Shown piece after piece: positions 5,073 through 27,544 of a stretch of 64,000 bases of DNA. Location of the stretch: assembly GCF_012726265.1 (NCBI RefSeq), contig NZ_JAASAG010000006.1, positions 248,001 through 312,000 of the forward strand, given 5' to 3'. Positions within the stretch are counted from its first letter, which is position 1, and every line of letters begins with the position of its first letter. Under the pieces are notes generated by a model. That model ran no database searches and had not been told where the DNA came from. It was given only the letters and a program-made list of their open reading frames with translations. The position numbers were made by a program, and so were the translations under genes. The stretch comes from Streptomyces sp. HNM0575. GTDB lineage: Bacteria > Actinomycetota > Actinomycetes > Streptomycetales > Streptomycetaceae.

Positions 5073-8000
5073 TCAGCGGAGCTGGCGGCGGACCAGTTCG
5101 TGGAACTCCCCGGCGGCGTCCGCCAGCAGCTCCGCCGGCGACCCCTGCTGCACGACCTTCCCGTGCGACATCACCAGCACCCGGTCGGCGTCCATGATCG
5201 TGGAGAGCCGGTGTGCGATCACGATGCGCGTGGCCTGGAGCTTGCGGGTGCTCTCGATGACGGTGCGCTGCGTCTCGTTGTCGAGGGCGCTGGTCGCCTC
5301 GTCGAAGTAGAGGATGCGGGGGCGCCGGATCAGGGCCTGGGCGATCATCAGGCGCTGCCGCTGCCCGCCGGAGACGGCGGCGCCCCCGTCGGAGAGGATC
5401 GTGTGCATGCCCATGGGCATGCGCTTGATGTCCTCGGCGAGACCGGCCATCTCGGCGGCCTCCCATGCCTCCTCGTGCGAGTAGATCTCCGCGCCGCAGA
5501 TCGAGTCGAGTATCGAGCCGACGAACGGCTGCGCGTTCTGGAGCACGACGCCGCACTGCCGGCGCACGGCCGCCTGGTCGAGGGCCGAGAGGTCCTGGCC
5601 GTCGTAGAGGACGCTGCCCGAGACCGGCTTCTCGAAGCCGATGAGCAGCCTCAGCAGCGTGGACTTGCCGCAGCCGCTCGGTCCCACGACCGCCACGAAC
5701 TCGCCGGGATTCACCCGCAGCGAGACGTCGTCGAGCGTCAGCGGTCCGTCGTCGCTGTAGCGGAACGACAGGTGCCGTGCCTCGATCTCCCCGGTCAGCT
5801 CGCCGGGCTGCGTACTGCCGTCGCGTACCTCGGTCGGCTCGTTCAGCACCGGCTTGACCTTCTCGAACATCGGCAGTGCGGCGGCGGCCGAGATCAGCGA
5901 GTTCGTCAGCTGCGTCACCGACGTCAGCATCATCGTGACGGCGGTGTTGAACGTGAGGAAGCCGCTGGAGGAGAGGCTGCCGCGGGCCGGCCCCGCCAGC
6001 AGCATGAACAGCACGAGCGAAGTGAGCGGCAGATACACCGAGTTGAGGACGGTGGTGTAGTTCTTGATCCGGCCGACCCGCTGCTGGAGCTCCCGGCTGC
6101 GGGCGAACTCCCGTGCCCACGCCGCGTACGCGAAGCTCTCCGCCGCGGCCACGCGCAGCTTCGGCAGACCCCGAAGAGTCTGGAACGACATGTTGTTGAG
6201 CTTGTTGTTGAGGTCGACCAGCTTGCTCTGCCAGCGCAGCTGCCAGATCCCCATCGCGATGAACGCGCCCGCGATGAACGCCAGCAACGTCAGTGCCATC
6301 AGCGCCAGTTGGACGCTGTAGAAGAGCAGCAGCACCAGGTTCATCGTGCCGATCGTGCAGGCTTGTACGGCGATGGGCCCCACGCCCGACAGCACTCTCC
6401 GCATGGTGCTGATTCCCATTGCGGCGCTTGCGAGTTCGCCCGTGGAGCGTTCCGCGAAGAACTTCGTCGGCAGCCGCAGCAGCCGGTCCCAGACGGCGGG
6501 TTGCAGCGCCGCCTCGACGCGTCCCTCCATGCGCAGGATCGAGGTGTTCTGGAGCAGCATGAAGACGGCGGAGACGATGCTGCTGACGACGATCGCCATG
6601 GAGACCTGCCTGATGAGGCTGGTCTCGGCGTTCGGCACGTACACGCCGAGCACCTGTCCCGTCGCGATCGGCACCAGCGCGCCCAGGCCGACGGCGACGA
6701 GCCCGCCGAGGGCGAGGTTGCGCACGTCCACGCGGGTGCCGCCCAGGCAGAAGCGCATCAACCCCCAGGCGCTCAGGGGCTGTTCGGGCAGCGGCCGGTA
6801 GAACATCACGGCGCGCGGCTCGAATTCGCCGGCGCGTGACTTGCGGACCCTGGTGCGTGCGCCGTCCGCGTCCACCGCCTCGTACCGTCCGTGCCGCCAC
6901 AGCAGCGCCACCGGTTCGCCGGAGTCGGCCCGGTGACCCACGAGCGGGCCGGTGTTCTCCCGCCACCAGCGGTCGCGCAGCTTCACCACGCGGGTGCGGA
7001 CACGGGAGCTGAGCGCGATCCGTTCCACGGGGTTCGTACGGTCGTTGACGGCGCGGCCCTGCGGTGGCGCCGACAGCTCGATGCCCGCGGCGCGGGCGGC
7101 CATGCGGGAGACGGCGAGCGTCGCGTCGTCGTTCGCGGAGGACGTGCCCGAGGCGCCCTTGCCGGTGGTGTTGATGGAGGCGAGCAGAGCCTGGTCGGCC
7201 TGGGCGCGTACGGTCTCGCCGGCCTCGATGCCCGCGGCGGTACGGTCCTCGTGCGCGCGTTCGAGGTGTTCGATCCAGCGGTCCAGTGCGGAGAGCAGGC
7301 GGAACTGCTGGTCCACCATGCGCTGCCACATCGCACCGTCGACGAGCAGCTGCGACGCCGCCTCCTGGCTGAACTCGGCGCCGTACTGGACACTCCGCGG
7401 ATCGATGTGCATCCACAGGATGTCGTCGTCGTCCTGCCCGTCGCCGCCGCGTCCGGCGCCCGGGTACAGGGCGTCGGGGGTCACCTCGCCGTCGAGCGGC
7501 GCCTCGAAGAGCACGCGCAGGCTGCGGCCGATGCCGAGGGCGAAGGCGTTGTCGAGGTGGGAGTGCGGGAGTGCGGCGATGCCGTCCGCGTTCTGGTGCT
7601 GCTGCTGGTACGGGTCCTGCTGTCCGCCTGCGGCCTGCTGTCCGCCCGGGTCCTGCTGCTGATTCCAGCCGGTGTGGCCGCGGAAGTGGGCGGCGACGTT
7701 GCTGTAGTCGGGCCGTTGCAGCTCGCGCAGCTCGATGCGGCGCACCGCGCACTCGCGCAGCGGCCTGCCGACGAGGGTGTGCAGGGTGCCCTCGATCGGG
7801 CCGAGGAGCAGGGTGCCCGGCTCCAGCCGGCCGAGGAAGTGCCAGTGGCCCTGCTGTACGGCGTCGACGGCGAAGAGGTCCATCGCACCGGCCGTCACCA
7901 GCCACAGCACATGCGGGCCTTCGAGCGGGAGGCTGCGCTTGCCGACGCAGTCGGCTTCGGTGCCGAGCATGCCGAAGGCGGCGGTCACCGGGTCCTGCGG

Positions 8001-8567
8001 CGCCGCGTGGGCGGGCGCCGACGCGGGCGGGGCGGTGGACTCGGGGCCCACGGCGGGGTGTTCACCGGTGTCGTGGGGGGCGTCCCTGTGCGGGACGGCC
8101 GGGTACTGGCCGGTGTCGTAGGGGACGGTGGGCTGCTGGCCGGTGTCGTACTGAGCGGTGCGGTGTTCACCGGTGTCGTACGGGACGGTGGGGTGCTGGC
8201 CGGTGTCGTACTGAGCGGTGCGGTGTTCGCCCGTGTCGTAGGGGACGGCGGGCTGCTGGCCGGTGTCGTACGGGACGGTGGGGTGCTGCCCCGTGTCGTA
8301 CGCGCCGTTCTGCTGCGGGCCCGCGCCCGCACCGGCACCCGCGCCGGCGTCCGCACCCGCACCCGCGTCAGCGCTCCCGGCCGCCGTCGGATACGAGCCG
8401 GTGTCCCACTGACCGGTCTCCCACTGGCCCGTCTGCCACTGACCCGTGTTCCAACGGCCCGTCTCCCACTGGCCGGTGTCCCACTGACCGGTGTCGGTGT
8501 CCCTCTGTCCCGTGTGCTGCCCCCCGTCCGTACGGGGGTCCTCCGCGGAGCCTTCGGCGGATGCCAC
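5073..8567 (-). CDS. NHLM-type bacteriocin export ABC transporter, second subunit (no peptidase)
   Basis: A 1164-residue membrane ABC half-transporter. The GTG at 8567 is preceded by AAGGAG at a 7-nt spacing. Residues 26-57 are pentapeptide repeats of the form TGQWx and residues 90-160 are decapeptide repeats of the form YDTGxxPxxP; both are coded by DNA repeats. A cyclic-nucleotide-binding-like region follows (about 195-290). A type-I exporter transmembrane domain spans roughly 640-900. The ATPase domain has Walker A GPSGCGKST near residue 960, signature VSGGQRQR near 1065, then LYFDEATSAL. In NHLM systems this subunit partners the peptidase-bearing transporter encoded just upstream. The usual family length is nearer 900-1000, so the N-terminal repeats are extra. 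It probably helps export the double-glycine peptide encoded at 12370. Confidence 0.88.
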   Translation of the reverse strand: MASAEGSAEDPRTDGGQHTGQRDTDTGQWDTGQWETGRWNTGQWQTGQWETGQWDTGSYPTAAGSADAGAGADAGAGAGAGAGPQQNGAYDTGQHPTVPYDTGQQPAVPYDTGEHRTAQYDTGQHPTVPYDTGEHRTAQYDTGQQPTVPYDTGQYPAVPHRDAPHDTGEHPAVGPESTAPPASAPAHAAPQDPVTAAFGMLGTEADCVGKRSLPLEGPHVLWLVTAGAMDLFAVDAVQQGHWHFLGRLEPGTLLLGPIEGTLHTLVGRPLRECAVRRIELRELQRPDYSNVAAHFRGHTGWNQQQDPGGQQAAGGQQDPYQQQHQNADGIAALPHSHLDNAFALGIGRSLRVLFEAPLDGEVTPDALYPGAGRGGDGQDDDDILWMHIDPRSVQYGAEFSQEAASQLLVDGAMWQRMVDQQFRLLSALDRWIEHLERAHEDRTAAGIEAGETVRAQADQALLASINTTGKGASGTSSANDDATLAVSRMAARAAGIELSAPPQGRAVNDRTNPVERIALSSRVRTRVVKLRDRWWRENTGPLVGHRADSGEPVALLWRHGRYEAVDADGARTRVRKSRAGEFEPRAVMFYRPLPEQPLSAWGLMRFCLGGTRVDVRNLALGGLVAVGLGALVPIATGQVLGVYVPNAETSLIRQVSMAIVVSSIVSAVFMLLQNTSILRMEGRVEAALQPAVWDRLLRLPTKFFAERSTGELASAAMGISTMRRVLSGVGPIAVQACTIGTMNLVLLLFYSVQLALMALTLLAFIAGAFIAMGIWQLRWQSKLVDLNNKLNNMSFQTLRGLPKLRVAAAESFAYAAWAREFARSRELQQRVGRIKNYTTVLNSVYLPLTSLVLFMLLAGPARGSLSSSGFLTFNTAVTMMLTSVTQLTNSLISAAAALPMFEKVKPVLNEPTEVRDGSTQPGELTGEIEARHLSFRYSDDGPLTLDDVSLRVNPGEFVAVVGPSGCGKSTLLRLLIGFEKPVSGSVLYDGQDLSALDQAAVRRQCGVVLQNAQPFVGSILDSICGAEIYSHEEAWEAAEMAGLAEDIKRMPMGMHTILSDGGAAVSGGQRQRLMIAQALIRRPRILYFDEATSALDNETQRTVIESTRKLQATRIVIAHRLSTIMDADRVLVMSHGKVVQQGSPAELLADAAGEFHELVRRQLR
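8088..8300. repeat. In-frame 30-bp tandem repeat coding for YDTGxxPxxP units
   Basis: Seven 30-bp units inside the second export ABC transporter gene code for decapeptides such as YDTGQHPTVP and YDTGEHRTAQ. All copies keep frame. The order of unit variants (QHPTVP, QQPAVP, EHRTAQ, repeated) points to duplication of multi-unit blocks. A separate 15-bp array coding for TGQWx lies at 8397-8492. Confidence 0.9.
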
Positions 8568-8568
8568 G

Positions 8569-11190
8569 TCAGTGCTCCTTGACCAGGTCTGCGTACGGGC
8601 CGCCGCGGGCCACCAGTTCCTCGTGACGGCCGCGTTCGACGACGCTGCCGTGGTCCAGCATCACGATCTCGTCGCTGTCGCGGACCGTGCTCAGCCGGTG
8701 CGCGATGACCACGCACGCGCAGCCGCGCCGCCGCAGGTTGTCGATGATGACCTGCTCGGTCTGGGCGTCGAGCGCGCTGGTCACCTCGTCCAGTACGAGG
8801 ATGCTCGGCCGCCGCACCAGCGCGCGGGCGATCTCCAGGCGCTGCCGCTGCCCGCCCGAGAGGTTGCGGCCGTCCTGCTCGACGCGGCTGTGTATGCCGC
8901 CGGGCCGCCGTGTGAAGTCGTCGAGCACGGCGGCGTCGCGCAGCGCGGCGGTGACCGCCTCGTCCGGTATCGACGGGTCCCACAGCGCCACGTTGTCCCG
9001 TACGGTCCCCTCGAAGAGGAAGACGTCCTGGTCGACGAAGGAGACCGAGGCGGCCAGCGCGCTGCGGGAGATGTCCTCAAGCCGCTGCCCGTCGATGCGG
9101 ATCACTCCCTCCCACGGGCTGTACAGGCCCGAAATCAGCCTGGACACCGTGGACTTGCCGCTGCCGGAGCCGCCGACGAGCGCGACCTGCCGGCCCGGTC
9201 CGACCGACAGCGAGAAGTCCGTCAGCAGCGGCTTGTCGAGCGGGCTGTAGCCGAACGTGATGCTCTCCAGGGACACATGGCCCTTGAGGCGGCGGGTGTC
9301 CGCGACGGGCTCGCGCCGAGAGTAGAGCGAGTCGACGGGGAAGTTCTCCACGTCCTTCAGCCTGGCCACGTCCGCCGCGAAGTCCTGGATGCGCCCGGCG
9401 ACGCCGTTGAGCCGTGTGATGGGAGCGGTGAAGCGCGTCACGAGCGCCTGGAAGGCCACGAGCAGACCGATCGAGATGTGCCCCTCGACGGCGCGCATGC
9501 CGCCGATCAGCAGGATCATCGCGCTGTTGAGCGTCGCGAGCGTGGGCGCGACCACGGCGAGCCAGGCCGTGGGGACCCCGAGCTTCTGCTGCTCCTCCAG
9601 GGTGGTCGCGTGCTGCCCGGACCAGCGGCGGAAGTAGCCGTTCTCGCCGCCGGTGGCCTTCATCGTCTCGATCAACTGGAGGCCGGTGTAAGAGGTGTTG
9701 GTGAGCCGCGCGGTGTCGGCCCGCAGCTTCTGCGTGCCGGTGGCCCGCAGCCGTATCACCACGCGCATCGCGACGAGGTTGCCCAGCGCGATCAGCACGC
9801 CGATCACGGTCAGCTGCGGGTCGTACGTCCACAGCAGCACCGCGTAGAGGATGACGACGACGGCGTCGACGCCGGCCGCGGCCAGGTCGCGGGAGAGCGT
9901 CTCGGCGACGGTGTCGTTGGACTGGAGCCGCTGCACCAGGTCGGCGGGGCTGCGCTGCGCGAAGAACGTGACGGGCAGGCGCAGCAGATGCCGGAAGAAG
10001 CGGGCGCTGCTGAGCGTCGAGGAGATGATGCGCCCGCGCAGCAGGTTCGCCTGCTGGAGCGCGGTCAGCACGGCCGTGAGCAGGACCATCGCGCCCATCG
10101 AGCCGAACAGCACGCCCAGCAGCGACGTCTGGTCCCCGATCAGGAACATGTCGATGTACGTGCGGCTCAGCGCGGGCACCGCGGCGCCCACGCCCACCAG
10201 CAGCAGGCTGGCGAGCAGCGCGGCCAGCATCGTGCCGGTGGTGCGGCGCAGCCTCGCCGGCATGGCGCTCATGAAGCCGGGGCGCTTGCCGCCGCGGCGG
10301 AAGTCCTCGCCGGGCTCGAAGGTGAGGACGACGCCGGTGAAGCTGGTGTCGAACTCCTCCATGGGCACGAAACGGCGGCCCTTGTCGGGGTCGTTGATGT
10401 GTACGCCGCGACGGCCGAGGCGCCGTCCCATCCCCTCGTAGACGACGTAGTGGTTGAACTCCCAGAACAGGACGGCGGGCGCCGGCACCTCCGCGAGGGC
10501 CGCCGGCTCCATCTGCATGCCCTTGGCGGTCAGGCCGTAACTGCGGGCGGCCTTCAGGAGGTTGCTGGCGCGCGAGCCGTCGCGGGAGACGCCGCAGGCG
10601 ATGCGCAGCTCTTCGAGGGGCACGTGCCGGCCCCAGTGGCCGAGGACCATGGACAGCGCGGCGGCGCCGCACTCGACGGCCTCCATCTGGAGCACGGTGG
10701 GCGTGCGGATGGTCCGGTACTTGGGCTTCGGTATCTGCTGCGGCGGTGTGGGTCCGTCGCCTCCGCCGGTGCGGTGCTTGCCGCTGTTCCTGGGGCCCGC
10801 CTTGGCGGCGGACCTGTCGCCGGACCTGTCGCCTGACTTGTCAGCGGGCTTGTCGCCGGACCTGGCGCCGCCCGGGCGGTGCCGTCTGCGGCCGGGCGGC
10901 GGGAGGCGGTTCCGGCCGTCGCCGTCGCCGTCGGTACCGGCGTCGGGGCGCGTGCCCGCGTCCGGGGTGCGGGGCTCGGGCGCCGGCGCCTTCCGGCCGG
11001 ACTTCGCGGCGGACCTGCCGGACTTCGCGGGCCTGCCGGGCTCGGCCGAACCGGCGGGCTGCTTACGGGACTTGGCGGGGTTGGCGGGCGACTTGGCGGG
11101 CTTCGCGGACCCGGCCGCCCTGCCCGCCCTGCCCTTCCTGGAGGACGGGGCCGCGTCGGCCTGCTTGCCGGGCTTCTGCCGCGGGCTCAC
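8569..11190 (-). CDS. NHLM-type bacteriocin export ABC transporter with C39 peptidase domain
   Basis: An 873-residue peptidase-containing exporter. It starts at GTG 11190, overlapping the adaptor stop as GTGA. Residues 1-150 are a Lys/Pro/Ala/Gly-rich, probably disordered extension. The C39 cysteine protease domain follows with Gln168, catalytic Cys174 (VECGAAALSM), His247 (NHYVVYEG) and Asp267 (NDPDKG). This domain cleaves leader peptides after Gly-Gly during export. A six-helix transmembrane domain comes next, then an ATPase with Walker A GGSGSGKST, signature LSGGQRQRLE and Walker B ILVLDEVTSAL. All catalytic residues are intact. The partner ATPase gene starts 2 nt after its stop. The double-glycine peptide encoded at 12370 is its obvious substrate. 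Confidence 0.92.
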   Translation of the reverse strand: MSPRQKPGKQADAAPSSRKGRAGRAAGSAKPAKSPANPAKSRKQPAGSAEPGRPAKSGRSAAKSGRKAPAPEPRTPDAGTRPDAGTDGDGDGRNRLPPPGRRRHRPGGARSGDKPADKSGDRSGDRSAAKAGPRNSGKHRTGGGDGPTPPQQIPKPKYRTIRTPTVLQMEAVECGAAALSMVLGHWGRHVPLEELRIACGVSRDGSRASNLLKAARSYGLTAKGMQMEPAALAEVPAPAVLFWEFNHYVVYEGMGRRLGRRGVHINDPDKGRRFVPMEEFDTSFTGVVLTFEPGEDFRRGGKRPGFMSAMPARLRRTTGTMLAALLASLLLVGVGAAVPALSRTYIDMFLIGDQTSLLGVLFGSMGAMVLLTAVLTALQQANLLRGRIISSTLSSARFFRHLLRLPVTFFAQRSPADLVQRLQSNDTVAETLSRDLAAAGVDAVVVILYAVLLWTYDPQLTVIGVLIALGNLVAMRVVIRLRATGTQKLRADTARLTNTSYTGLQLIETMKATGGENGYFRRWSGQHATTLEEQQKLGVPTAWLAVVAPTLATLNSAMILLIGGMRAVEGHISIGLLVAFQALVTRFTAPITRLNGVAGRIQDFAADVARLKDVENFPVDSLYSRREPVADTRRLKGHVSLESITFGYSPLDKPLLTDFSLSVGPGRQVALVGGSGSGKSTVSRLISGLYSPWEGVIRIDGQRLEDISRSALAASVSFVDQDVFLFEGTVRDNVALWDPSIPDEAVTAALRDAAVLDDFTRRPGGIHSRVEQDGRNLSGGQRQRLEIARALVRRPSILVLDEVTSALDAQTEQVIIDNLRRRGCACVVIAHRLSTVRDSDEIVMLDHGSVVERGRHEELVARGGPYADLVKEH

Positions 11191-11990
11191 GGGAGCAGCC
11201 AATCGACGGGACGCTGCGGAGGCTGGTGTATCGCGCCGTCGGTGATCGTCAGCGATTCGAGCCGGTACGGTGGGCCCTTCTCGGAGGACCACTTGTAACC
11301 GGACTTCGTCGACGCCGACTTCTCCAGCTCCACCAGGACCGGCACGGGCTGGCCGTCCTTGGTGAACTGCGCCGCCAGCCTGTCGTCGCCGAGGAATCCG
11401 CTGATCTGCTGCCGGGTCTGCGCCCGGCCGACGGCCTTGACCTTGCCGCGCAGCACTCCGTACTCGTCGGTGGGCGCCGACTGCACCGTCAGGTCGACGG
11501 CGGCGCCGGGGGAGACCGTGGAGCCGCCGCTGCCCGAGACGTACAGCATCGCGACGAGCGGCTCGTCGGCACGCTCGATGCGTTCGACCGTCGCCACGTC
11601 CTTGCCCGGTGTGATCACCGAGCCGATCTTCGCCGTCATCGACGTCATGCGGCCCGGGGCGACCGTGCGAACTGCCCTGTATCCGGTGTCGGTTCGCACC
11701 TTCAGCACGGGTGTACGGGGCGGGAGCATGCGGCCCTCCTCGGCCAGCACCTGCACGACCTGGCCCGAGACGGGGCTCTGGAGCACGTAGCTGCCCTTGG
11801 AGTGGGTGAGGACGCCGGGAGCGTCGAGCTTGCCCGAGACCTTGCCGGTGATGGCCCAGTACGCCGCACCGGCCATCACGAGCACGGTGACGAGCAGCAC
11901 GAGCCAGCCCTGCGGGCGCGCGAAGCGCACGGGCAGGTCGAGTTCCTCGGGGGATTGCAGCTTGGAAAACGCCTTCTGCCGGAACTGCAC
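11187..11990 (-). CDS. HlyD-family secretion adaptor of the NHLM-type export system
   Basis: A 267-residue protein with a short cytoplasmic N-terminus (KLQSPEELDLPVRF), one membrane helix at about residues 27-50, and an extracytoplasmic biotinyl-lipoyl-like/HlyD region (GVLTHSKGSYVLQSPVSGQVVQV). The LQSPEELD opening is typical of adaptors that partner NHLM transporters. The GTG at 11990 has GAGGGA about 10 nt upstream. Its TGA overlaps the GTG of the peptidase transporter by 4 nt, so translation is coupled. In a Gram-positive cell it would extend the export path through the wall or steady the two ABC subunits. Confidence 0.87.
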   Translation of the reverse strand: MQFRQKAFSKLQSPEELDLPVRFARPQGWLVLLVTVLVMAGAAYWAITGKVSGKLDAPGVLTHSKGSYVLQSPVSGQVVQVLAEEGRMLPPRTPVLKVRTDTGYRAVRTVAPGRMTSMTAKIGSVITPGKDVATVERIERADEPLVAMLYVSGSGGSTVSPGAAVDLTVQSAPTDEYGVLRGKVKAVGRAQTRQQISGFLGDDRLAAQFTKDGQPVPVLVELEKSASTKSGYKWSSEKGPPYRLESLTITDGAIHQPPQRPVDWLLP

Positions 11991-12369
11991 GGGGCTATTC
12001 CCTCAACTGCGTTCGTCGCTTTCGGGCATGACGCTTCCTTCGGGGCGGCGCATGGACGCCGTCCACTTCACATCGGCTTCATCGGCGGACGGGCGGGCAC
12101 GGGCCGGGGGAACGGCCGGGTATGGCGCCGCCGTACGCAGACGGTAATTCGTGGGCGGTACTCCGGGGAGTGTACTCCGGAGAGTGTGCGGACTTCCGGG
12201 ACAGGTCCTTCACAACGCTTCACAAAAGCGTTTCACGACTGTCCCGTACACATCCGTAAGCCCCGGAACAAGGGGGTTCCGGGGCTCACTTCACCCCACT
12301 GGGATTCGGATGCGCCGGGCGGTGCGGGGTGTGCACTGCTGGCCCCGCCGCCCGGCAGCAGGCATCGCC
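11991..12369 (-). other. Region between precursor gene and exporter operon
   Basis: No gene is supported in 379 bases. On the minus strand this is the 3' side of the precursor gene and the 5' side of the adaptor gene. It contains a hairpin at 12259-12286, and near 12160-12190 two partly repeated copies of a TACTCCGGGGAGTG-like element. A separate promoter for the exporter operon may lie here but cannot be placed with confidence. Confidence 0.5.
12259..12286 (-). terminator. Hairpin between precursor peptide gene and exporter genes
   Basis: Perfect 11-bp inverted repeat AGCCCCGGAAC / GTTCCGGGGCT with a 6-nt loop, about 85 nt beyond the precursor stop. It has no T-run, as is usual in these genomes. 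It probably ends or thins precursor transcripts before the exporter genes. Confidence 0.6.
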
Positions 12370-12573
12370 TCAGAGACCGGCGACACCGGTGATCTGGGAG
12401 GTGTCGACGCCGGTCAGGCCGGAGGCAACGCCGTTCACGGTGTTGGCGGTCTCGGAAACCGGGGCGACGGAGTCCGCGGTGCTCACAGCGGTGCCGACGA
12501 CCGAGCCGAGGACGCCACCCGAAACGTTGTCCAGGTCGTTGTCGGAAATCTCGCGGGTCTCAATGAAGTCCAT
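12370..12573 (-). CDS. Double-glycine leader peptide precursor (bacteriocin-like, 67 aa)
   Basis: The ATG at 12573 has GAAGGGAAG 8 nt upstream. The first 20 residues form a classical export leader: acidic MDFIETREIS, then DNDLDNVSGG, which fits the (E/D)LxxVxGG pattern cut by C39 peptidases. The predicted 47-residue core is rich in Val, Gly, Ala, Ser and Thr. It has no Cys, no aromatic residue and no Lys, Arg or His; its only charged residues are two Asp and one Glu. Without Cys it cannot form lanthionines, and no modifying enzyme is encoded nearby. It lies upstream of the adaptor and two ABC genes on the same strand. Activity is unknown: a bacteriocin, a signal, or a surface-active peptide are all possible. 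Confidence 0.85.
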   Translation of the reverse strand: MDFIETREISDNDLDNVSGGVLGSVVGTAVSTADSVAPVSETANTVNGVASGLTGVDTSQITGVAGL

Positions 12574-13452
12574 GAGTTGAGCTTCCCTTCGCTTGCTCTG
12601 GTGTTCTCAATAGCATCGGCCGGCTCGGGGAAAGCCGTCCGGCCGTACGAGCGGTCGTCTGATGCCCGAGAACGGGAACCATTCGTTCAACTTCCGCGTC
12701 AGGGCCCGATCAAAGCACGTGTACGCGCTGCCGGGCCACTCGTCCGTGTGCTCGTCAGGCGCCGATAAGGGCCCTCGACTTCGCCGAGGTGTAGCCGTGT
12801 GCACGAATTCGTGGCGAAGCCTTCACTTGTCACTCCGGCCGTGTCCGCACTCTGGAACACGGCGGTGCGCCCCAATTGGACAATCCCGCCCCAAGTCCAC
12901 CGCACGGCAAGCACGCCCCCGTACGCCCCGGTGTCCATGTGCCGTCCTTACGGACCAGTTGTGCAGGTTCGCTGAATTCAGTTTCGGTGCAGTGGAGTTG
13001 CTCCCGCCTGCGCGGTCTGACCTGCGGCTGCGGGCTCTGTGAAGGGGCTCTGCACGGACGGTGACTCAAGGTAGCCGGAGAATTCCGCACCGAAGTCCCC
13101 TCGTATCAGAGGCACTTAAGGAAGGGTAAGGGCGAAATGACCCCTTCGAATGCCGGGACGTGAACGGGCGGGGCGATGCGGTCATGGAGGCATGCATCGG
13201 AATTTCGCGGGCTCGGGTGGGTGTGCGGAGGTCCGCTGCGGGCGCTCAACTGCGGTGGAGCCGCGAGCTCGTGAGCCGGTGTCAGCGTGGCTCCCCTCGG
13301 GACCCCTCCGGGCCGGCAGGGCGACCCGCGGCATATATCCCCAACAGCGCACGAAGTCCAGTAAATCGACGGATCGTGCTGAACCGTGACGATCGCAGGG
13401 CGAGTTCGTTGACCCTGTGCAGGCTGGTAGTGGGTTCCCCCACGTTGGCAAT

Positions 13453-20564: not shown

Positions 20565-22205
20565 TTGAGTACCGAATCATTAAGCGGACGGTCGGGGTTC
20601 AGACGCCAGACGGTGTGGCCCGCCGCCCTTTTACTCGCCGCTGTGGCGGTCATCGCGCAGATGGTCAGCTGGTGGACCCGGTCCCCCGCCGTGATGGCGA
20701 GCGGATCCGTCGCGGCCGTGGGGCTGCTGGCCTGCCTGCCCCACCTGTGGCGGATGCACCGTGAGGACATAGACAACGCCGCCCGCAGTGAGGAGCGGGC
20801 CGAGCAGACCAAGCGCGCCGCCGACGCCCAGGTGTCCTCGGAGAGGGCGCGCCTGACGGAACAGTGGCAGCAGTGGTCGCAGTCGCAGTTCGAGGCCTTC
20901 CATGACTCCGTCGAGGCCTGGGCCCGCGATCTGCGGACCCTGCTCACGGAGCGGCGCAGGCCCGACTCCTCCTTCCCCAGCCTGAGTCCGCAGACGGCGA
21001 AGGTGCTCACCAGCGCGCTCGACGAGGTGGACGAAGAGCTCATCGACGTCCAGGACGCCTGTGAGCACGCGATCGTCTTCCTCGCACAGCGGCTCCAGAC
21101 GGGCGGTCTCCAGATCCAGGAGAAGGCCGGCGGCCTCACCGAGCGCCCCGAGCCCGGACTGCCCGAACTCGGCATCGAGATCGACCACTTGGCGACGACC
21201 TTCGCCCACCACGCCCAGAGCCTGCGCATCCTCGGCGGCTCGTGGACCGGCCAGCAGTGGCAGGACACGGTTCCCCTCACGGACATCGTCCGTGCGGCGG
21301 GCGGTCAGATCACCGACTACCAGCGCGTGGTGATCGGCGGCGAACCCGACCTGGGCGTCAAGGACTTCGCGGCCGAATGGCTCATCCACCTCGTCGCCGA
21401 GCTCCTCGGCAACGCGACGACCTACAGCCCCAGGAGCAAGGAGGTCACAGCGCAGCTTGAGGCCGTGCCGTCGGGGGCGGTCATCCAGATCGACGACCGC
21501 GGAACGGGCATGACCGAGGCCCGTCTCCAGAAGGCCCTCGAACTGGTCGCGGGCCCGCGCGACACCAGCATCCGCGATCTTCAGACCCCGCAGATCGGGC
21601 TGGCGGTCGTCGGGAACATCGCACGCCGGCTCAACATCAGGGTGAGCCTGGGACGTTCGCCGTACGGGGGCATCCGGGCCGTCGTGCTCGTGCCCATGGA
21701 CCTCCTCGAAGCGATCGACCCGGTGTACACGATGCCCGTACCGGAAGGCACCGCCGGGCCGGCGGCCGAAGAAGAGCGGCCCCTGCGAGCGGAACGCGAC
21801 GAGAGCCCCCTCGCCGCACCGTCCCGGGTGGCGCCGGAGTCCCTGCCGTCCCGGAAGCCCGCCGCCGCGCAGTCCTCCGCGTCCGCGCCGTCCTCCGCGT
21901 CCTCCGATCCGGCGCCTGCCGCGGACCCCGCGTCCGTGCTCGCGTCCGAGCCGTCCGGGGCGTCCGAGCCGTCCGAGTCCGCGACGTCCCCCTCGGACCA
22001 GCCGTCCCCGGCCGTGGGGCTGCCCAGGCGCCGTTCGCCGCGGCACACCGCCTCCGCGGCTCCCGTCGAAGCGCAGCAGACCGGCGCGGACAGCGAAGAA
22101 GACCCGGAAGCCGCCGCTTCCTTCATGAGCTCCTTCGTGCTGGGGGGCCGGACCTCTTCGCCCGATGATGAAACCGATTCGCCCCAGGGGGACGACGACC
22201 GATGA
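20565..22205 (+). CDS. cvnA: Conservon sensor-kinase-like ATPase (CvnA)
   Basis: A 546-residue protein. Two membrane helices lie within residues 17-62 (WPAALLLAAVAVIAQMVSW, then a second), followed by a charged coiled region. The HATPase_c domain spans about 270-390, with N box ELLGNATTYS, G1 box IDDRGTGM and a later GLAVVGNIARRL. There is no canonical phospho-accepting H box. A long Ser/Pro/Ala-rich tail follows. The start is a TTG at 20565 with no clear Shine-Dalgarno; a GTG at 20613 is the alternative. CvnA proteins sense signals at the membrane and work with the CvnB-D proteins as a G-protein-coupled-like module. The stop overlaps cvnB as ATGA. Confidence 0.88.
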   Translation: MSTESLSGRSGFRRQTVWPAALLLAAVAVIAQMVSWWTRSPAVMASGSVAAVGLLACLPHLWRMHREDIDNAARSEERAEQTKRAADAQVSSERARLTEQWQQWSQSQFEAFHDSVEAWARDLRTLLTERRRPDSSFPSLSPQTAKVLTSALDEVDEELIDVQDACEHAIVFLAQRLQTGGLQIQEKAGGLTERPEPGLPELGIEIDHLATTFAHHAQSLRILGGSWTGQQWQDTVPLTDIVRAAGGQITDYQRVVIGGEPDLGVKDFAAEWLIHLVAELLGNATTYSPRSKEVTAQLEAVPSGAVIQIDDRGTGMTEARLQKALELVAGPRDTSIRDLQTPQIGLAVVGNIARRLNIRVSLGRSPYGGIRAVVLVPMDLLEAIDPVYTMPVPEGTAGPAAEEERPLRAERDESPLAAPSRVAPESLPSRKPAAAQSSASAPSSASSDPAPAADPASVLASEPSGASEPSESATSPSDQPSPAVGLPRRRSPRHTASAAPVEAQQTGADSEEDPEAAASFMSSFVLGGRTSSPDDETDSPQGDDDR

Positions 22206-22606
22206 GTCACGAAGCAGCCGCGTACGACCAGTCCTGGATGCTCAGTGACGTAGCTGATGTCCCCGGCGTCCAGCACGCGGTGGTACTCAGCGCCGACGGT
22301 CTGGTCCGCGCCCGTACCCGCGATCTCGGCGTCGACGAGGCCGACACGCTCGCCGCGGCGGCGGCCGGGCTCCAGTCGCTGGGCACCAGCCTGGCGGGGC
22401 GCTTCGGCGAGGGCGGGCTGAAGCAGCACATGGTCGAGTGGAAGGGCGGTTTCCTCTTCCTGCGGGGCGCGGGGGACGGATCCAGGCTCGCGGTGATCAC
22501 CAGCAACAAGGTCGATCCGGGTGTCATCGCCTCTCAGATGGTGCTCCAGGTCCAGCGGTTCGGCGACTACCAGTCCAGTCCGCCGAGGAGGCGCTCGGTA
22601 ACGTGA
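22202..22606 (+). CDS. cvnB: Roadblock/LC7-domain protein (CvnB)
   Basis: A 134-residue protein, typical CvnB length. The roadblock fold is seen in WMLSDVADVPGVQHAVVLSADGLVRA, then AAAAAGLQSLG and LAVITSNKVDPGVIASQM. These proteins act as GTPase-activating or scaffold partners for the Ras-like CvnD. The gene is coupled by 4-nt overlaps to cvnA upstream and cvnC downstream. Confidence 0.93.
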   Translation: MSHEAAAYDQSWMLSDVADVPGVQHAVVLSADGLVRARTRDLGVDEADTLAAAAAGLQSLGTSLAGRFGEGGLKQHMVEWKGGFLFLRGAGDGSRLAVITSNKVDPGVIASQMVLQVQRFGDYQSSPPRRRSVT

Positions 22607-22971
22607 CCGGACCGAGAGGACCGAGAAGGGGACCTGTACGCCCCTACGTGCTGACCCGCGGGCGTGCCCGGCCTCGTCAACGGCTGGCCGTGGAGACGCT
22701 GCTCGAAACCGTCGACCCCGAAGGCAGTGGTCTCCCGGTGACCGCGAGCCGGCAGGAACGGATGCTGTGGCGGATGTGCCGCCACAGACTCTCGGTGGCG
22801 GAGTCCGCCGCGCACCTGGGCCTGTCGGTCAGCGTCGTCACGATCCTCGCCTGCGACCTGATCGAAGCCGGATACCTGACCACACGTTCCCAGGTGCCGA
22901 AGGCGCAGCTTCCCGACGTGCACATACTCCAAGAGGTACTTGATGGACTCCGCAGACAACTCAGCGCCTGA
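22603..22971 (+). CDS. cvnC: DUF742 protein (CvnC)
   Basis: A 122-residue DUF742 protein. The GTG at 22603 overlaps the cvnB stop as GTGA. The sequence VRPYVLTRGRARP near the N-terminus and a winged-helix-like core (HRLSVAESAAHLGLSVSVVTILACDLIEAGYL) are typical. The role is unproven; it belongs to the conservon complex. The cvnD ATG lies within its 3' end, a 29-nt overlap. Confidence 0.92.
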   Translation: MTGPRGPRRGPVRPYVLTRGRARPRQRLAVETLLETVDPEGSGLPVTASRQERMLWRMCRHRLSVAESAAHLGLSVSVVTILACDLIEAGYLTTRSQVPKAQLPDVHILQEVLDGLRRQLSA

Positions 22972-23551
22972 AGGGCGCTATCTGGCCCCGACCGTCGACC
23001 AGGCACTGAAGATCCTCGTCGTCGGCGCGTTCGGGGTCGGCAAGACCACGCTGGTGGGAAGCGTCAGCGAGATAGACCCGCTGCGCACGGAGGAGACCAT
23101 CACCCAGGCCAGTACGGGGGTCGACGACCTCTCCGGTCTCTCGGGGAAGTCGGCCACGACCGTGGCCATGGACTTCGGGCGTATCACCCTCAACTCCCGA
23201 ATGGTCCTCTACCTCTTCGGCACGCCGGGGCAGCGGCGCTTCTGGGACCTGTGGGAGGGTCTGGTCATCGGCTCGATCGGCCTGCTGGTCGTCATCGACA
23301 CCCGCAGGATCGAGGACAGCTTCGAGATCCTCGACCAACTCGACCTGCGCAGCCTTCCGTTCGCCGTCGCGATCAACCAGTTCCCGGACTCGGCCCGCTA
23401 CGAGGACGACGAGCTGCGGGACGCCCTCGATCTGCTCCCGGAGACGCCGCTCATCCATCTCGACGCCCGCAACCGCCATTCGTCGACGGAGGCACTGATC
23501 ACCCTCGTCGAGTACGCCGCCCGTATCAAGGCCCAGGAGAAGGTCGCGTGA
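22943..23551 (+). CDS. cvnD: Conservon Ras-like GTPase (CvnD)
   Basis: A 202-residue small GTPase. Walker A is GAFGVGKTT (near residue 28), the G3 motif is FGTPGQRRFW, and the G4 position reads NQF instead of NKxD, the usual change in CvnD-type proteins. The G3 element has Thr-Pro-Gly in place of the classical DxxG. AGAGG precedes the ATG at 22943. It would switch between GTP and GDP forms and connect the CvnA sensor to downstream effectors. The stop overlaps the P450 start. Confidence 0.93.
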   Translation: MDSADNSAPEGRYLAPTVDQALKILVVGAFGVGKTTLVGSVSEIDPLRTEETITQASTGVDDLSGLSGKSATTVAMDFGRITLNSRMVLYLFGTPGQRRFWDLWEGLVIGSIGLLVVIDTRRIEDSFEILDQLDLRSLPFAVAINQFPDSARYEDDELRDALDLLPETPLIHLDARNRHSSTEALITLVEYAARIKAQEKVA

Positions 23552-24822
23552 CCACACCCGCACCCCCGCGCACATACGGCTCAGAAAAGCTCGTATCGCT
23601 CACGGAGATCACCCAGTCCAGAGACCCGCACCGCATCTACCACCAACTCCGCCTCCAGCACGGCCCGGTGGCGCCCGTCGAGCTGGAGCCCGGCGTGCCC
23701 GGCTGGCTGGTGATGGGCGTCGACCAGCTGCGCATCATCACCGAACGCGAGGCCCTCTTCTCCCGCGACGCCCGCAACTGGCGGGACCTCAACGACGGCA
23801 TCGTCTCGCCGGACTCCGGGCTGCTGCCGATGATGGCCTACCGGCCCAACGTCATCGGCGCCGACCAGCAGGAGCACAGGCGCCTGCGGCAGCCCCTGGA
23901 CGACGGCGTCGGACGCATCAACCACCGTGCGCTCCGCCGCCAGGTGCAGCGGATCTGTGGCGAACTCATCGGCCACTTCTCCCAGTCGGGCCGCGCGGAC
24001 CTCGTCGCCGACTACGCGGCCTACGTCCCCATGCTGGCCGTCGCGAGCCTCTTCGGCCTCGACACCCGCCAGGGCCACGAGCTGCGTGCCGCGCTGATCG
24101 CGCTGTTCAGCAGCCAGACGGACTCGCAGGTCGGCAACCGCAGCTTCGAGCAGATCCTCTTCGACACCCTGCGGGAGCGGCAGGCGAACCCCACGGACGA
24201 TCTGACGACCGCCCTGATGAACCACCCCAACCTCCAGGACGATCCCGAAGTCCTCCAGTCCATGGTGGTGATGATCTCCGCGGGGAACGAGACGACCACC
24301 TGCTGGATCGCCCACACGCTCTACCGGATGATCACGGACACCTCCTTCGACGACCGGCTGCGCAGCGGCCAGCTCGGCGTGGACGACGCCCTCGACGAGG
24401 TGCTGTGGCGCGAACCGCCGATGACGCACATGCCCGCGCGGTACGCGCTGCGCGACATCGAGCTCGGCGGCCAGGCCATCCGCCACGGCGACGTCCTCAT
24501 CCTCGGGCTCTCCGCGGCCAATTCGGACCCGGCCCTCGCGCCCGAGGGCACCCGCCCCCACAACAACCGCGCGCACATGGCCTATTCGGCCGGGCCGCAC
24601 ATGTGCCCGGCGCAGGACACCTCGCGCGTGATCACCCGTACCGCCGTGGACACCGCGCTGCATCTGCTGCCCGGTCTGCGGCTCACCGTCACACCCGGCG
24701 AGATCAGCTGGAACCCCAGCCCGTGGACCCGCTGCCCGACGCAGCTGCCCGTCGCATTCGCCGTACCGCACGAAATCCGCACCACGCCCGCAGCCGCCCG
24801 CCCGACTGGAGAATCCGCATGA
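23548..24822 (+). CDS. Cytochrome P450, CYP157-like, K-helix ExxR lost (CvnE-type)
   Basis: A 424-residue P450-fold protein starting at GTG 23548, overlapping cvnD as GTGA. The I-helix AGNETT (245-250) is present. The heme-ligand loop is atypical but keeps Cys353 (SAGPHMCPAQ). The K-helix reads Glu284-Val-Leu-Trp287, so the Arg of the normally invariant ExxR is Trp. Loss of ExxR is the hallmark of the CYP157 family, members of which sit in conservons next to CYP154 enzymes. It may act as a P450 with unusual heme-pocket stability or as a non-catalytic partner. The substrate is unknown. Confidence 0.85.
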   Translation: MTTPAPPRTYGSEKLVSLTEITQSRDPHRIYHQLRLQHGPVAPVELEPGVPGWLVMGVDQLRIITEREALFSRDARNWRDLNDGIVSPDSGLLPMMAYRPNVIGADQQEHRRLRQPLDDGVGRINHRALRRQVQRICGELIGHFSQSGRADLVADYAAYVPMLAVASLFGLDTRQGHELRAALIALFSSQTDSQVGNRSFEQILFDTLRERQANPTDDLTTALMNHPNLQDDPEVLQSMVVMISAGNETTTCWIAHTLYRMITDTSFDDRLRSGQLGVDDALDEVLWREPPMTHMPARYALRDIELGGQAIRHGDVLILGLSAANSDPALAPEGTRPHNNRAHMAYSAGPHMCPAQDTSRVITRTAVDTALHLLPGLRLTVTPGEISWNPSPWTRCPTQLPVAFAVPHEIRTTPAAARPTGESA

Positions 24823-26075
24823 CGGCAGAACAAGCACCGTCCACATCCGGCGTACCGACGCTCGCGCTCGACCCGTACGGCCGCGACCACCAGGGAGAGG
24901 CCGCGACACTGCGCGGGCTGGGACCGGTGGTCCGGGTGCAGCTGCCGGGCGACGTCGAGGCGTGGAGCGTCACGCGCCACGACCTGCTCAACCAGCTCGT
25001 GATGGACCCGCGCATCTCCAAGGACTGGCACAACTGGGGTGCCATGGAGCGCGGTGAGATCCCCGACGACTGGCCGCTGATCGGCATGGTCAAGGTCACC
25101 AACATGGTCACCGCGGACGGCGCGGAGCACCGCCGGCTGCGCAAGCTCGTCAGCCAGACCTTCACGGCACGCCGTGTGGAGGACCTGCGTCCCGGCACGG
25201 AGGAGATCGTCGCGAACCTCCTGGACGCGCTGCCCTCGCACGCCGACCAGGACGGCACCGTCGACCTGCGCAAGCACTTCGCCTACCCCGTGCCGATGCA
25301 GGTGATCAGCGACCTCTTCGGCATCCCGGACCACGAGCGTCCCGAACTGCGCGAAGCGGTGGACAAGATCTTCCGCAGCGACCTCTCGCCCGAGGTCGTC
25401 GGCGCCAACCAGATCGCCGTCTACCAGCTGCTCGCCCGGGTCGTCGAACTCCGCGGCAAGGAACGCGGCGACGACCTCACCAGCGCCCTGATCTCCGCCC
25501 GCGAGGCCGAGCCGGACGCGCTCACGCAGGAAGAACTCGTGGGCACGCTCCTCGTGATGCTCTCCGCCGGGCACGAGACCACCCTCAGCCTCATCGTCAA
25601 CGCCGTACGGGCCCTGCTCACGCACCCCGACCAACTCGCCCTCACCAGGGGCGAGGAGGACATGTGGCCCGCGGTCGTCGAGGAGACCCTGCGGTGGGAG
25701 GCGCCCATCGGCAACTTCCCCTTCCGCTATCCGACGGAGGACATCGAGGTCGCCGGCATCACCATCCCCAAGGGCGACCCGATCATGGCCCCGTACAGCG
25801 CGGTCGGCAGGGACGCACAGCAGCACGGCCCGGACGCGGGCAGCTTCGACATCGCCCGCGAGCAGGCACGCCACCTCGCCTTCGGGCACGGCGCGCACGC
25901 GTGCCTCGGAGCGCCGCTGGCCCGCCTGGAGGGCACCATCGCGCTCCGTGAACTCTTCGCGCGCTACCCGGACATGATCCTGGGGGCCGTACCGGGCACC
26001 CTTGAGCCGGTGCCGTCGATGTTCTCCAACAGCGTCACCACGCTGCCGGTACGCCTGGGGCGGCCGGCGAGCTGA
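24819..26075 (+). CDS. Cytochrome P450, CYP154-like
   Basis: A 418-residue P450 starting at ATG 24819, overlapping the previous P450 as ATGA. All hallmarks are intact: I-helix AGHETT (250-255), Glu289-x-x-Arg292, and heme loop FGHGAHACLG with Cys362. Its position after a CYP157-like gene matches the known CYP157/CYP154 pairing in conservons. It needs an external ferredoxin and reductase, none encoded in the operon. Given the downstream prenyl synthase and UbiA-like genes, oxidation of a terpene product is the simplest role, which is inference. Confidence 0.88.
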   Translation: MTAEQAPSTSGVPTLALDPYGRDHQGEAATLRGLGPVVRVQLPGDVEAWSVTRHDLLNQLVMDPRISKDWHNWGAMERGEIPDDWPLIGMVKVTNMVTADGAEHRRLRKLVSQTFTARRVEDLRPGTEEIVANLLDALPSHADQDGTVDLRKHFAYPVPMQVISDLFGIPDHERPELREAVDKIFRSDLSPEVVGANQIAVYQLLARVVELRGKERGDDLTSALISAREAEPDALTQEELVGTLLVMLSAGHETTLSLIVNAVRALLTHPDQLALTRGEEDMWPAVVEETLRWEAPIGNFPFRYPTEDIEVAGITIPKGDPIMAPYSAVGRDAQQHGPDAGSFDIAREQARHLAFGHGAHACLGAPLARLEGTIALRELFARYPDMILGAVPGTLEPVPSMFSNSVTTLPVRLGRPAS

Positions 26076-26299
26076 CGTGACCGAGGGGGAGCGGCGCGGG
26101 CGGTGGGCGGAAAGCCGCACCGCCGTCCGCGTCCGGCCGCCGCCGTAGCCGGCCGGAACCGTACGGGGAGGGGAGCAGGGGCCCGGACGCGCAGTGCCGC
26201 GCGCCAGGCCCCGGTACGGATCGCCGCAACGTTGCACATCCACACGTAGCAGCTGCCAGGAGCACCACCCCCGAGGTTCTTCAGGAAGGCGCGACGACC

Positions 26300-27544
26300 A
26301 TGCTCGACGAAGGACAGGACACCCCGGACATACCGCCGCCGACCGGGCATTGCGGCGAATCCGGCCGCACCCGGCGGCCGGAGACCCCGGCCGGGCCACC
26401 CGGCTCCGGCTCCGGCACCGGCTCCCGAAGTGGGACCGGGCCGCGCGACGCCGCGCGGAGAAGCCTTGAGGAGTGGCTGGATCCGCGCCACGGCGACCCG
26501 CTGCACGAACAGCACGGCTGGGCCCTGCTGCCGCCCGGCAAGCTGCTGCGGCCCGTGCTGGTGCTGGAGTCGGCGGCGGCCGTCGGCGGGCGGCCCGAGC
26601 AAGTCGAGCCCGTGGCCGCGGGGTTCGAGCTGATGCACGCCGGCAGCCTCGTGCACGACGACATCATCGACGGTGACGAGGTGCGGCGCGGGCGCGCGGC
26701 GACGCACTGCCGCTACGGCGTCGAGCGGGCGATCGTCGGCGCCGACGCCCTCTTCTTCGCGGTGTTCGAGACGCTGGGGGAGTGCCGTCTGCGCGGCGTC
26801 CCCGACCGGCTGATCGCCGACGCGACCGCCGTCATCGCCGAGGCCGGGCTGGCCATCACCCGCGGCGCCACACTGGAGCTGGACCTGAGCGGCAGGCTCC
26901 ACGACGACACCGAGGCGTATCTGGAGATGGCCCGGCTGAAGACGGCGGCACTGCTGCGTGCGGCATGCCGCACGGGGGCCGTACTGGCCGGCGGAACCGC
27001 CGAACAGACCGACGCGCTCACGGAGTTCGGGGAGACGCTCGGCATCGCCTTCCAGATACAGGACGATCTGCTGCCGTACGCGGAGCCCGCCGGGTCGGGT
27101 CCTGCACCGTCCGCCGGGCCTGCCCGGTCCGCCGAGCCCGCCGGGTCGGCACCGTACGCCGGGCCCGCTGAGCCCGCCGGGTCCGCCGGGCCGGCCCCGT
27201 CCCGCCCGGCCGCCCGTTCCGTCACCGCGGGCAAGTCCCGCACCAGCGACCTGCGCAACGGCCGCCCCGTGCTGCCGCTGCTCCTCGCCCACCGGCACGG
27301 CAGCGACGCCGACCGCGCCCTGCTCGCCCGGCTGCTCGACGGCGGTGCGGACGAGGAGCTGCGCCAGGAGCGCCTGCACGAACTCCTCGAATCCACCGGC
27401 GCGTTGACGGCCGCACGGCACACGGCGGACACCTATCTGGACCGCTGCCGCAAGGCCCTCGAAGTGCTGCCGCCCAGCCCGCACCGGCGACGGCTGGCCG
27501 CGCTGGCCGACCAGTTCGACGGCCCGGGGGTGGACGCCCGATGA
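26300..27544 (+). CDS. Polyprenyl (likely geranylgeranyl-range) diphosphate synthase
   Basis: A 414-residue trans-isoprenyl diphosphate synthase. GKLLRP (80-85) binds isopentenyl diphosphate. The first Asp-rich motif is Asp120-Asp121-Ile-Ile-Asp124. The second is reduced to Asp255-Asp256-Leu-Leu-Pro. Positions -5 and -4 before the first motif are Gly and Ser, not aromatic, so a product longer than C15 is expected. Directly after the second motif, residues 262-308 are a repetitive Gly/Pro/Ala/Ser insertion before the conserved GKSRTSDLRNG loop. Residues 1-50 are also disordered. AGGAAGG precedes the ATG. Its stop overlaps the UbiA-like gene as ATGA, so the two probably act in sequence. Confidence 0.9.
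   Translation: MLDEGQDTPDIPPPTGHCGESGRTRRPETPAGPPGSGSGTGSRSGTGPRDAARRSLEEWLDPRHGDPLHEQHGWALLPPGKLLRPVLVLESAAAVGGRPEQVEPVAAGFELMHAGSLVHDDIIDGDEVRRGRAATHCRYGVERAIVGADALFFAVFETLGECRLRGVPDRLIADATAVIAEAGLAITRGATLELDLSGRLHDDTEAYLEMARLKTAALLRAACRTGAVLAGGTAEQTDALTEFGETLGIAFQIQDDLLPYAEPAGSGPAPSAGPARSAEPAGSAPYAGPAEPAGSAGPAPSRPAARSVTAGKSRTSDLRNGRPVLPLLLAHRHGSDADRALLARLLDGGADEELRQERLHELLESTGALTAARHTADTYLDRCRKALEVLPPSPHRRRLAALADQFDGPGVDAR

Follow-up and report, generated by a model that had tools for sequence, protein, structure and literature searches.

A Streptomyces peptide export cassette whose leader recurs on unlinked precursors: a candidate multi-cargo, modification-free regulon

Introduction

Which peptides leave a Streptomyces hypha through a C39 peptidase transporter when no modifying enzyme is encoded beside it? 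The question is raised by a four-gene locus in a 64,000-nucleotide (nt) stretch of Streptomyces sp. HNM0575 (contig NZ_JAASAG010000006.1, positions 248,001 to 312,000; the whole stretch is called the window, and the 7.38-Mb genome G000). On the minus strand the genes run in the order precursor peptide, HlyD-type adaptor, C39 peptidase-ABC transporter (ABC1) and second ABC transporter (ABC2). The precursor (12370-12573) has 67 amino acids (aa), namely a 20-aa leader (12514-12573) that ends in DLDNVSGG and a core of 47 aa. An earlier note on this DNA had described the four genes in this arrangement, and we found them as described. The answer that we favour, with a probability of about 0.6, is that the locus belongs to a multi-cargo, modification-free peptide export regulon of Streptomycetaceae.

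The locus itself is not new and is known as a putative bacteriocin or lanthipeptide-like cluster. Its published counterpart is very probably SCO0753-0756 of S. coelicolor, matched here by gene order and description rather than by the sequence of SCO0753. According to the part of the source available to us, SCO0753 is a Cys-free hydrophobic peptide whose gene shows the strongest overexpression in a mutant with dispersed growth (log2 value of 6.3, and 4.25-4.4 for SCO0754-0756), expression of the locus is linked to the SCO5282/5283 two-component system, and an earlier prediction of SCO0753 as a lanthipeptide is cited (PMC6629963). An increase of SCO0753 in an aor1 mutant is given in the accessible part of a second account (PMC5733086).

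Results

The leader and the transporter are gained or lost together. In 295 genomes of the genus, a 23-residue leader profile (E <=0.01) and TIGR03796, the family of ABC1, taken over its cut-off, each matched 218 genomes; 214 had both, four the leader only, four the transporter only and 73 neither, in counts that ignore phylogeny. The earlier note had named the co-occurrence of precursor and transporter as a check, and this result bears it out. Of the leader-only genomes, G119 has a locus truncated where its contig stops, the completeness of G001 is 79%, and the ABC1 frame of G180 and G278 is apparently broken. In the loci of the latter two (L263 and L264) the precursor, HlyD and ABC2 still give matches, and a sequencing error is possible. 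Among the loci of the 80 best ABC1 relatives in named genomes, a precursor gene precedes the transporter genes in all 75 that reach far enough (74 by tblastn, L093 by motif; in L042, L054, L063, L100 and L107 the contig ends too early), HlyD is present in 76 of the 76 that are sufficiently long, and ABC2 in 79 of 80, the contig of the remaining one ending. Since the precursor was found in 75 of 75 loci and, by a single-sequence search at E 0.01, in 202 of the 295 genomes, the association is not due to chance. One leader peptide was present per main locus (98 of 98 loci with a match), no family beyond the four genes exceeded 19 of the 80 loci, and from its sequence the unit looks like a free-standing four-gene cassette. 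The family counts in the 80 loci may be low, since the crude gene caller behind them recovered HlyD in only 52. The search for the precursor family in other actinomycetes, also raised before, succeeded within the order, where the full-length precursor profile matched 282 of 391 genomes in four of ten genera; at the level of the class the leader profile matched 26 of 345 genomes in one of 126 genera, that genus being the window's own.

The same leader is also carried by precursors that lie far from the transporter, which appears to be new; no published account of the shared leader, the unlinked precursors or the shared promoter described below was found in the open-access literature searched. 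Two to five leader matches were present in 99 of the 214 genomes with both leader and TIGR03796 (335 matches in all), and their unlinked status was checked in the loci that were fetched. In 21 such loci we read 23 transporter-unlinked precursors with no adjoining NHLM transporter; their leaders are shared and their cores fall, by eye, into several unrelated types. L226 and L228 gave a profile match but no precursor by motif. The window genome itself has two neighbouring double-glycine (GG) precursors of this kind (G000:C4:95728-95961 and 96361-96600, locus L152), with a leader nearly identical to that of the window, on a contig other than that of the window locus and with no NHLM transporter beside them.

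Many of the unlinked precursors have the promoter of the cassette as well. In the window, the conserved promoter region (12697-12830, minus strand) includes GTGAAG at 12821-12826, GAGTGG at 12736-12741 and TGCTTTGATC with CTTTGATC at 12708-12715. The upstream regions of relatives share TGTGAAGAA...CATG.AC...CTGCACG and GATTGG...CGTGCTTTGATCC, the window having GAGTGG where most relatives have GATTGG. The second element was found in 71 and the TGTGAAGAA-type element in 63 of 83 non-redundant upstream regions, and the two are spaced by 109-111 nt in 56 of the 60 regions that carry both. With a weight matrix from 59 transporter-linked promoters, 15 of the 23 unlinked precursors scored higher than any of the 134 control genes drawn from the same loci. 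We also trained a covariance model, on sequence alone, with 37 transporter-linked promoters, all of which lie beside hlyD (36 loci checked, and the window), and ran it on 16 of 20 genomes chosen for at least three precursor matches. The window promoter, which is itself a training row, was recovered (R1 match at G000:C29:260704-260828, E 3.2e-14). All 31 matches at E <0.01 in the 16 genomes sit 36-140 nt upstream of a precursor match, so that the confident targets are leader-bearing peptides only. Sixteen of them belong to linked precursors, with hlyD within the fetched stretch, and 15 to unlinked ones: ten in stretches of about 3.1 kb without hlyD, four in 12-kb stretches without an NHLM transporter, and one, in G347, about 4 Mb from the linked precursor of that genome. 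In 22 leader-free genomes the model gave one match below 0.01 (E 0.0075), and 13 of the 22 had matches up to E 0.1.

The occurrence of one leader and one promoter on unlinked precursors suggests that the leader acts as an address and the promoter as the switch of a regulon, and that the exporter would also serve these precursors. We go one step further only tentatively, at slightly less than even odds, in proposing a secreted-peptide regulon with a single leader, exporter and promoter, in which interchangeable, unrelated and unmodified cores act jointly outside the hypha, for example at the colony surface or in the matrix.

Between the precursor gene and hlyD, which adjoins it in all 105 loci used for the core set described below, lies a hairpin (12256-12289, minus strand) with a 14-bp stem, terminator- or attenuator-like and without a clear T-run (z -3.6 for the 151-nt stretch). 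A perfect stem of at least 9 bp was present in this gap in 56 of 75 loci, the observed median being 12 bp and the shuffled mean 5. It would probably let more peptide than transporter be made, in keeping with the accessible part of the expression account, in which SCO0753 responded more strongly than SCO0754-0756 (PMC6629963). A peptide expressed so much more strongly than its transporter would seem to be a bulk product, which speaks against the processed peptides being pheromones that coordinate mycelial behaviour, an explanation that we regard as improbable. GG peptides with C39 exporters do act as signals in Streptococcus, and the tie to the two-component system mentioned above would suit a signal too, but the operon has no recurring receptor or kinase gene among its neighbours, and long low-complexity cores that vary between species seem poorly suited to a specific receptor.

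The cores were compared in 93 distinct precursors, including that of the window, from 105 of the 110 loci L009-L118; the other five are truncated, and distinct sequences were counted because some of the loci belong to the same genomes. As noted before, the core of the window lacks Cys and aromatic residues, as well as Lys, Arg and His. No Cys, Met, Trp or Lys was found in any of the 93 cores, while His occurs in seven, Tyr in two, and Phe and Arg in one each; every one of them carries a net charge between -1 and -4. The cores of the main-locus family are 44-58 residues long and dominated by G, V, T, L, A and S (Gly 20%, Val 20%, Thr 16%, Leu 12%, Ala 11%; Thr and Ser together about 22%). Thus the description of the core as unmodified, hydrophobic and anionic is strengthened by the whole family, in which the cores are anionic and Cys-free and have no recurring enzyme beside them, though it is not thereby proven. 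The leader is of the type E-I-S-D-x-D-L-D-N-V-S-G-G and ends in AG instead of GG in three of 92 distinct start-trimmed precursors. L034, L086, L087 and L101 have AAG where others have SGG or AGG, so the cleavage site may, from these sequences, tolerate Ala at the first Gly. The window precursor gave no match at E 0.1 to TIGR03793 or TIGR03798, the nitrile-hydratase- and Nif11-type leaders, in agreement with the claim of a short leader of another kind, and it marginally matched TIGR01847, bacteriocin_sig (16.1 bits, cut-off 15.7, E 0.013). The best match of the precursor profile to solved structures had E 0.12, and the few linked and unlinked precursors compared with PHROGs and NCBIfam gave weak matches only, the NCBIfam ones under cut-off.

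The sequence pattern of the core is that of an amphipathic helix with glycine zippers. The statistics were taken on a single alignment consensus, since shared ancestry inflates shuffle z-scores. Its hydrophobicity repeats every 100-110 degrees (p 0.003-0.005; p 0.003 at 100, and p 0.0075 when the best angle within 95-115 degrees is taken), and it has eight GxxxG motifs where 2.8 would be expected (p 0.0002). A largely conserved D-S-I-A-P break separates two helix-patterned halves, and the glycines of the second half are spaced 3-4-4-3-4-4-4-4. A beta or amyloid pattern of the main core was considered and is not favoured, there being no periodicity at 160-180 degrees. The rough ratio of non-synonymous to synonymous substitution rates (dN/dS), approximate in both parts due to codon bias, is 0.45 in the leader and about 1.0 in the core, so it is the pattern of the core that is kept and not its letters.

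Some of these properties would also be expected if the product were a class II-like bacteriocin, that is, a glycine-zipper peptide that inserts into the membranes of competitors and kills them, perhaps with a partner among the unlinked cargo. Class IIb bacteriocins have a GG leader, a C39-ABC transporter with an accessory protein, and a GxxxG helix. The enrichment in GxxxG, the amphipathic pattern, the core dN/dS near 1, the marginal bacteriocin_sig match and a weak match of the unlinked precursor L224 to the class IIb family TIGR03949 (16.6 bits, under the cut-off of 21.5) are consistent with it. Such bacteriocins are usually cationic, though, whereas every core here is anionic; no additional gene recurs beside the operon, hence no immunity gene, and a leader in 218 of 295 genomes would be unusual for a narrow weapon. 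We therefore consider a bacteriocin unlikely. The same dN/dS, together with the 77 of 295 genomes without TIGR03796 over its cut-off and the two with an apparently broken ABC1, could suggest that the cassette is a relic kept by linkage or drift and its peptide non-functional, but the composition, charge, helical spacing, leader, promoter and hairpin are all conserved, and the joint gain or loss of leader and transporter likewise makes a relic highly implausible.

No modifying enzyme was found to recur near the precursors, as had been claimed for the window. For the 132 proteins encoded next to main loci, the 25 most frequent Pfam families held no enzyme for ribosomally synthesised and post-translationally modified peptides (RiPPs), including no recurring LanM, although rare or single cases are possible; nor was there one among the 25 commonest families of 114 neighbours of unlinked precursors, where a few general methyl- and acetyltransferases occur. 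The commonest Pfam family accounted for at most eight of the 132 and four of the 114 proteins. These lists cover neighbours only. That the peptide is a RiPP modified by an enzyme encoded elsewhere would agree with the earlier lanthipeptide prediction for SCO0753, the content of Thr and Ser, the frequent linkage of NHLM-type transporters to modified peptides given in the accessible part of PMC2887384, and a Streptomyces peptide, perhaps of this family, named 'type A2 lantipeptide' in the accessible part of PMC13047742. A lanthipeptide is rejected, as a core without Cys can form no lanthionine, and with no RiPP enzyme among either set of neighbours we judge modification from elsewhere to be a little less probable still than a signal.

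The exporter proteins are of the NHLM type, as had been proposed. ABC1 (8569-11292, minus strand) scores 1006 bits with the NCBIfam family TIGR03796 (cut-off 853.3) and 121.3 bits with PF03412, and ABC2 (5073-8567, minus strand), which is without a peptidase, scores 875.7 bits with TIGR03797 (cut-off 709.4). The short HlyD-type adaptor (11187-11990, minus strand; 267 aa; PF13437 at 38.2 bits; one N-terminal membrane segment by eye) reaches 152.9 bits with TIGR03794, slightly short of the cut-off (156.2), and aligns best over positions 255-417 of the 421-position profile. The Cys208, His281 and Asp301 residues of the C39 domain, reported as intact in the earlier note, are all present in the window ABC1; in the 80 relatives the Cys, His and Walker A patterns were found in 80, the Walker B pattern in 77 and the Asp pattern in 62. 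The closest ABC1 among the named loci found is that of Streptomyces albidus (L039), with 94% identity. Because the annotated GTG start of ABC1 (11292) falls within hlyD and the match begins only near residues 183-194 in several relatives, the true start is probably located further downstream.

Residues 190-480 of ABC2 (7128-8000, minus strand), in its N-terminal part, are predicted to form a beta-barrel and a long helix. Most of the top Foldseek matches were regulatory domains of CRP/FNR-type proteins and cAMP kinases (best E 5.7e-4, with low template modelling (TM) scores), so, going by this model, ABC2 may carry a cyclic nucleoside monophosphate (cNMP)-like regulatory domain. Tandem repeats at 8091-8302 and 8397-8495, with units of 30/60 and 15/30 nt, encode DTGQ-type repeats at the extreme N-terminus of ABC2. 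The operon is flanked by a phospholipase A2 gene (PF09056, 13160-14194, plus strand) on one side and a subtilisin-inhibitor-like gene (PF00720, 3755-4384, minus strand) on the other, neither of which we treated as part of it. Further away (20565-28506, plus strand) there is a row of consecutive genes for a histidine-kinase-like ATPase, Roadblock, a small ATP-binding protein, P450, a polyprenyl synthetase and UbiA, which we take to be a conservon-like set followed by terpenoid genes.

Discussion

The mechanism that we propose starts with the C39 domain of ABC1, which would recognise the leader and cut after Gly-Gly. Judging from their families, ABC1 and ABC2 would form the pump and the short HlyD an extracellular adaptor. 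The exported core would most likely self-associate at the hyphal surface or in the membrane as a surface-active or coat-like material, because the spacing of its hydrophobic residues and glycines suits two amphipathic glycine-zipper helices. The reading of the earlier note is supported in part, namely as regards the export genes, the short leader, the Cys-free, anionic core and the lack of a recurring modifying enzyme beside it; it had overlooked SCO0753-0756, the glycine-zipper pattern and the unlinked precursors with the same leader, many of them with the same promoter.

Several results weigh against a multi-cargo regulon of this kind. One leader on several cargoes is not proof of one exporter for all, and no isolated product of such a precursor was found in the literature searched. 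The covariance model was run on a chosen sample; only two of its 13 further matches at E 0.01-0.1 lie upstream of a precursor, and of the 51 precursor matches that these 16 genomes contain, 33 have a promoter match at E <=0.1 and 18 do not, among them both unlinked precursors of the window genome. TIGR03796 occurs without a leader match in G028, G038, G120 and G188, which perhaps hold other NHLM-type systems. As to the core, the period in the window's own sequence is less sharp than that of the consensus (p 0.004 at 105, 0.035 at 110 and 0.095 at 100 degrees), a dN/dS of about 1.0 also fits weak constraint or diversification, and the AlphaFold2 model of the precursor has two helices at a poor predicted local distance difference test (pLDDT) score of 58, which is weak agreement only. 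The neglect of phylogeny in the co-occurrence counts, the crude gene calling and the restriction of the Pfam lists to the commonest families of neighbours, all given above, count on the same side.

If the proposed regulon exists, its leader and promoter are tools for listing candidate cargo in any Streptomyces genome, and the deletion of one exporter could show the role of the exported peptides in the hyphal surface and in dispersed growth. The family occurs in 218 of the 295 genomes sampled from the genus, roughly three in four, and was once predicted to be a lanthipeptide despite having no Cys.

The locus resembles SCO0753-0756 in the peptide-HlyD-ABC-ABC order and in its hydrophobic, Cys-free peptide (PMC6629963, PMC5733086), and a Ppx/GppA gene follows ABC2 in two of our loci, as SCO0757 is an exopolyphosphatase. 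It differs in the length of the precursor, which is given as 77 aa for SCO0753 and is 67 aa in the window. The available parts of both accounts do not describe unlinked precursors, the promoter or the glycine zipper. With the NHLP/Nif11-type export systems (TIGR03794, TIGR03796 and TIGR03797) it shares the two ABC transporter families, with an HlyD score just under the TIGR03794 cut-off, and the presence of several precursors per genome (PMC2887384, as far as accessible); in contrast to them, the leader here is short, with no nitrile-hydratase or Nif11 leader match, and no thiazole/oxazole-modified microcin (TOMM) or LanM gene lies beside it. The class IIb bacteriocins are alike in the GG leader, the C39-ABC transporter with an accessory protein and the GxxxG helices, which here are a pattern of sequence, but they differ in that each main locus here has one anionic peptide rather than two adjacent peptide genes, and no recurring immunity gene.

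SapB is a small hydrophobic Streptomyces lanthipeptide linked to morphology. The peptides described here are alike in size, hydrophobicity, genus and link to morphology, and the accessible part of PMC6629963 draws the comparison, but they differ from SapB in having cores without Cys.

The nearest working analogue that we found, likened by description rather than by sequence homology, is the EbfG1-4/PteB system of Synechococcus elongatus. According to the available parts of its accounts, several small double-glycine proteins there need one C39 peptidase transporter, their transcription is regulated, and they have a surface or matrix role in biofilm development (PMC4997328, PMC9981879). The sequences in both cases include several GG peptides per C39 exporter and no linked modifying enzyme. 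The differences are that the EbfG system is cyanobacterial, that the ebfG genes lie in one operon, and that EbfG1-3 are amyloid, whereas the pattern of the Streptomyces core is helical.

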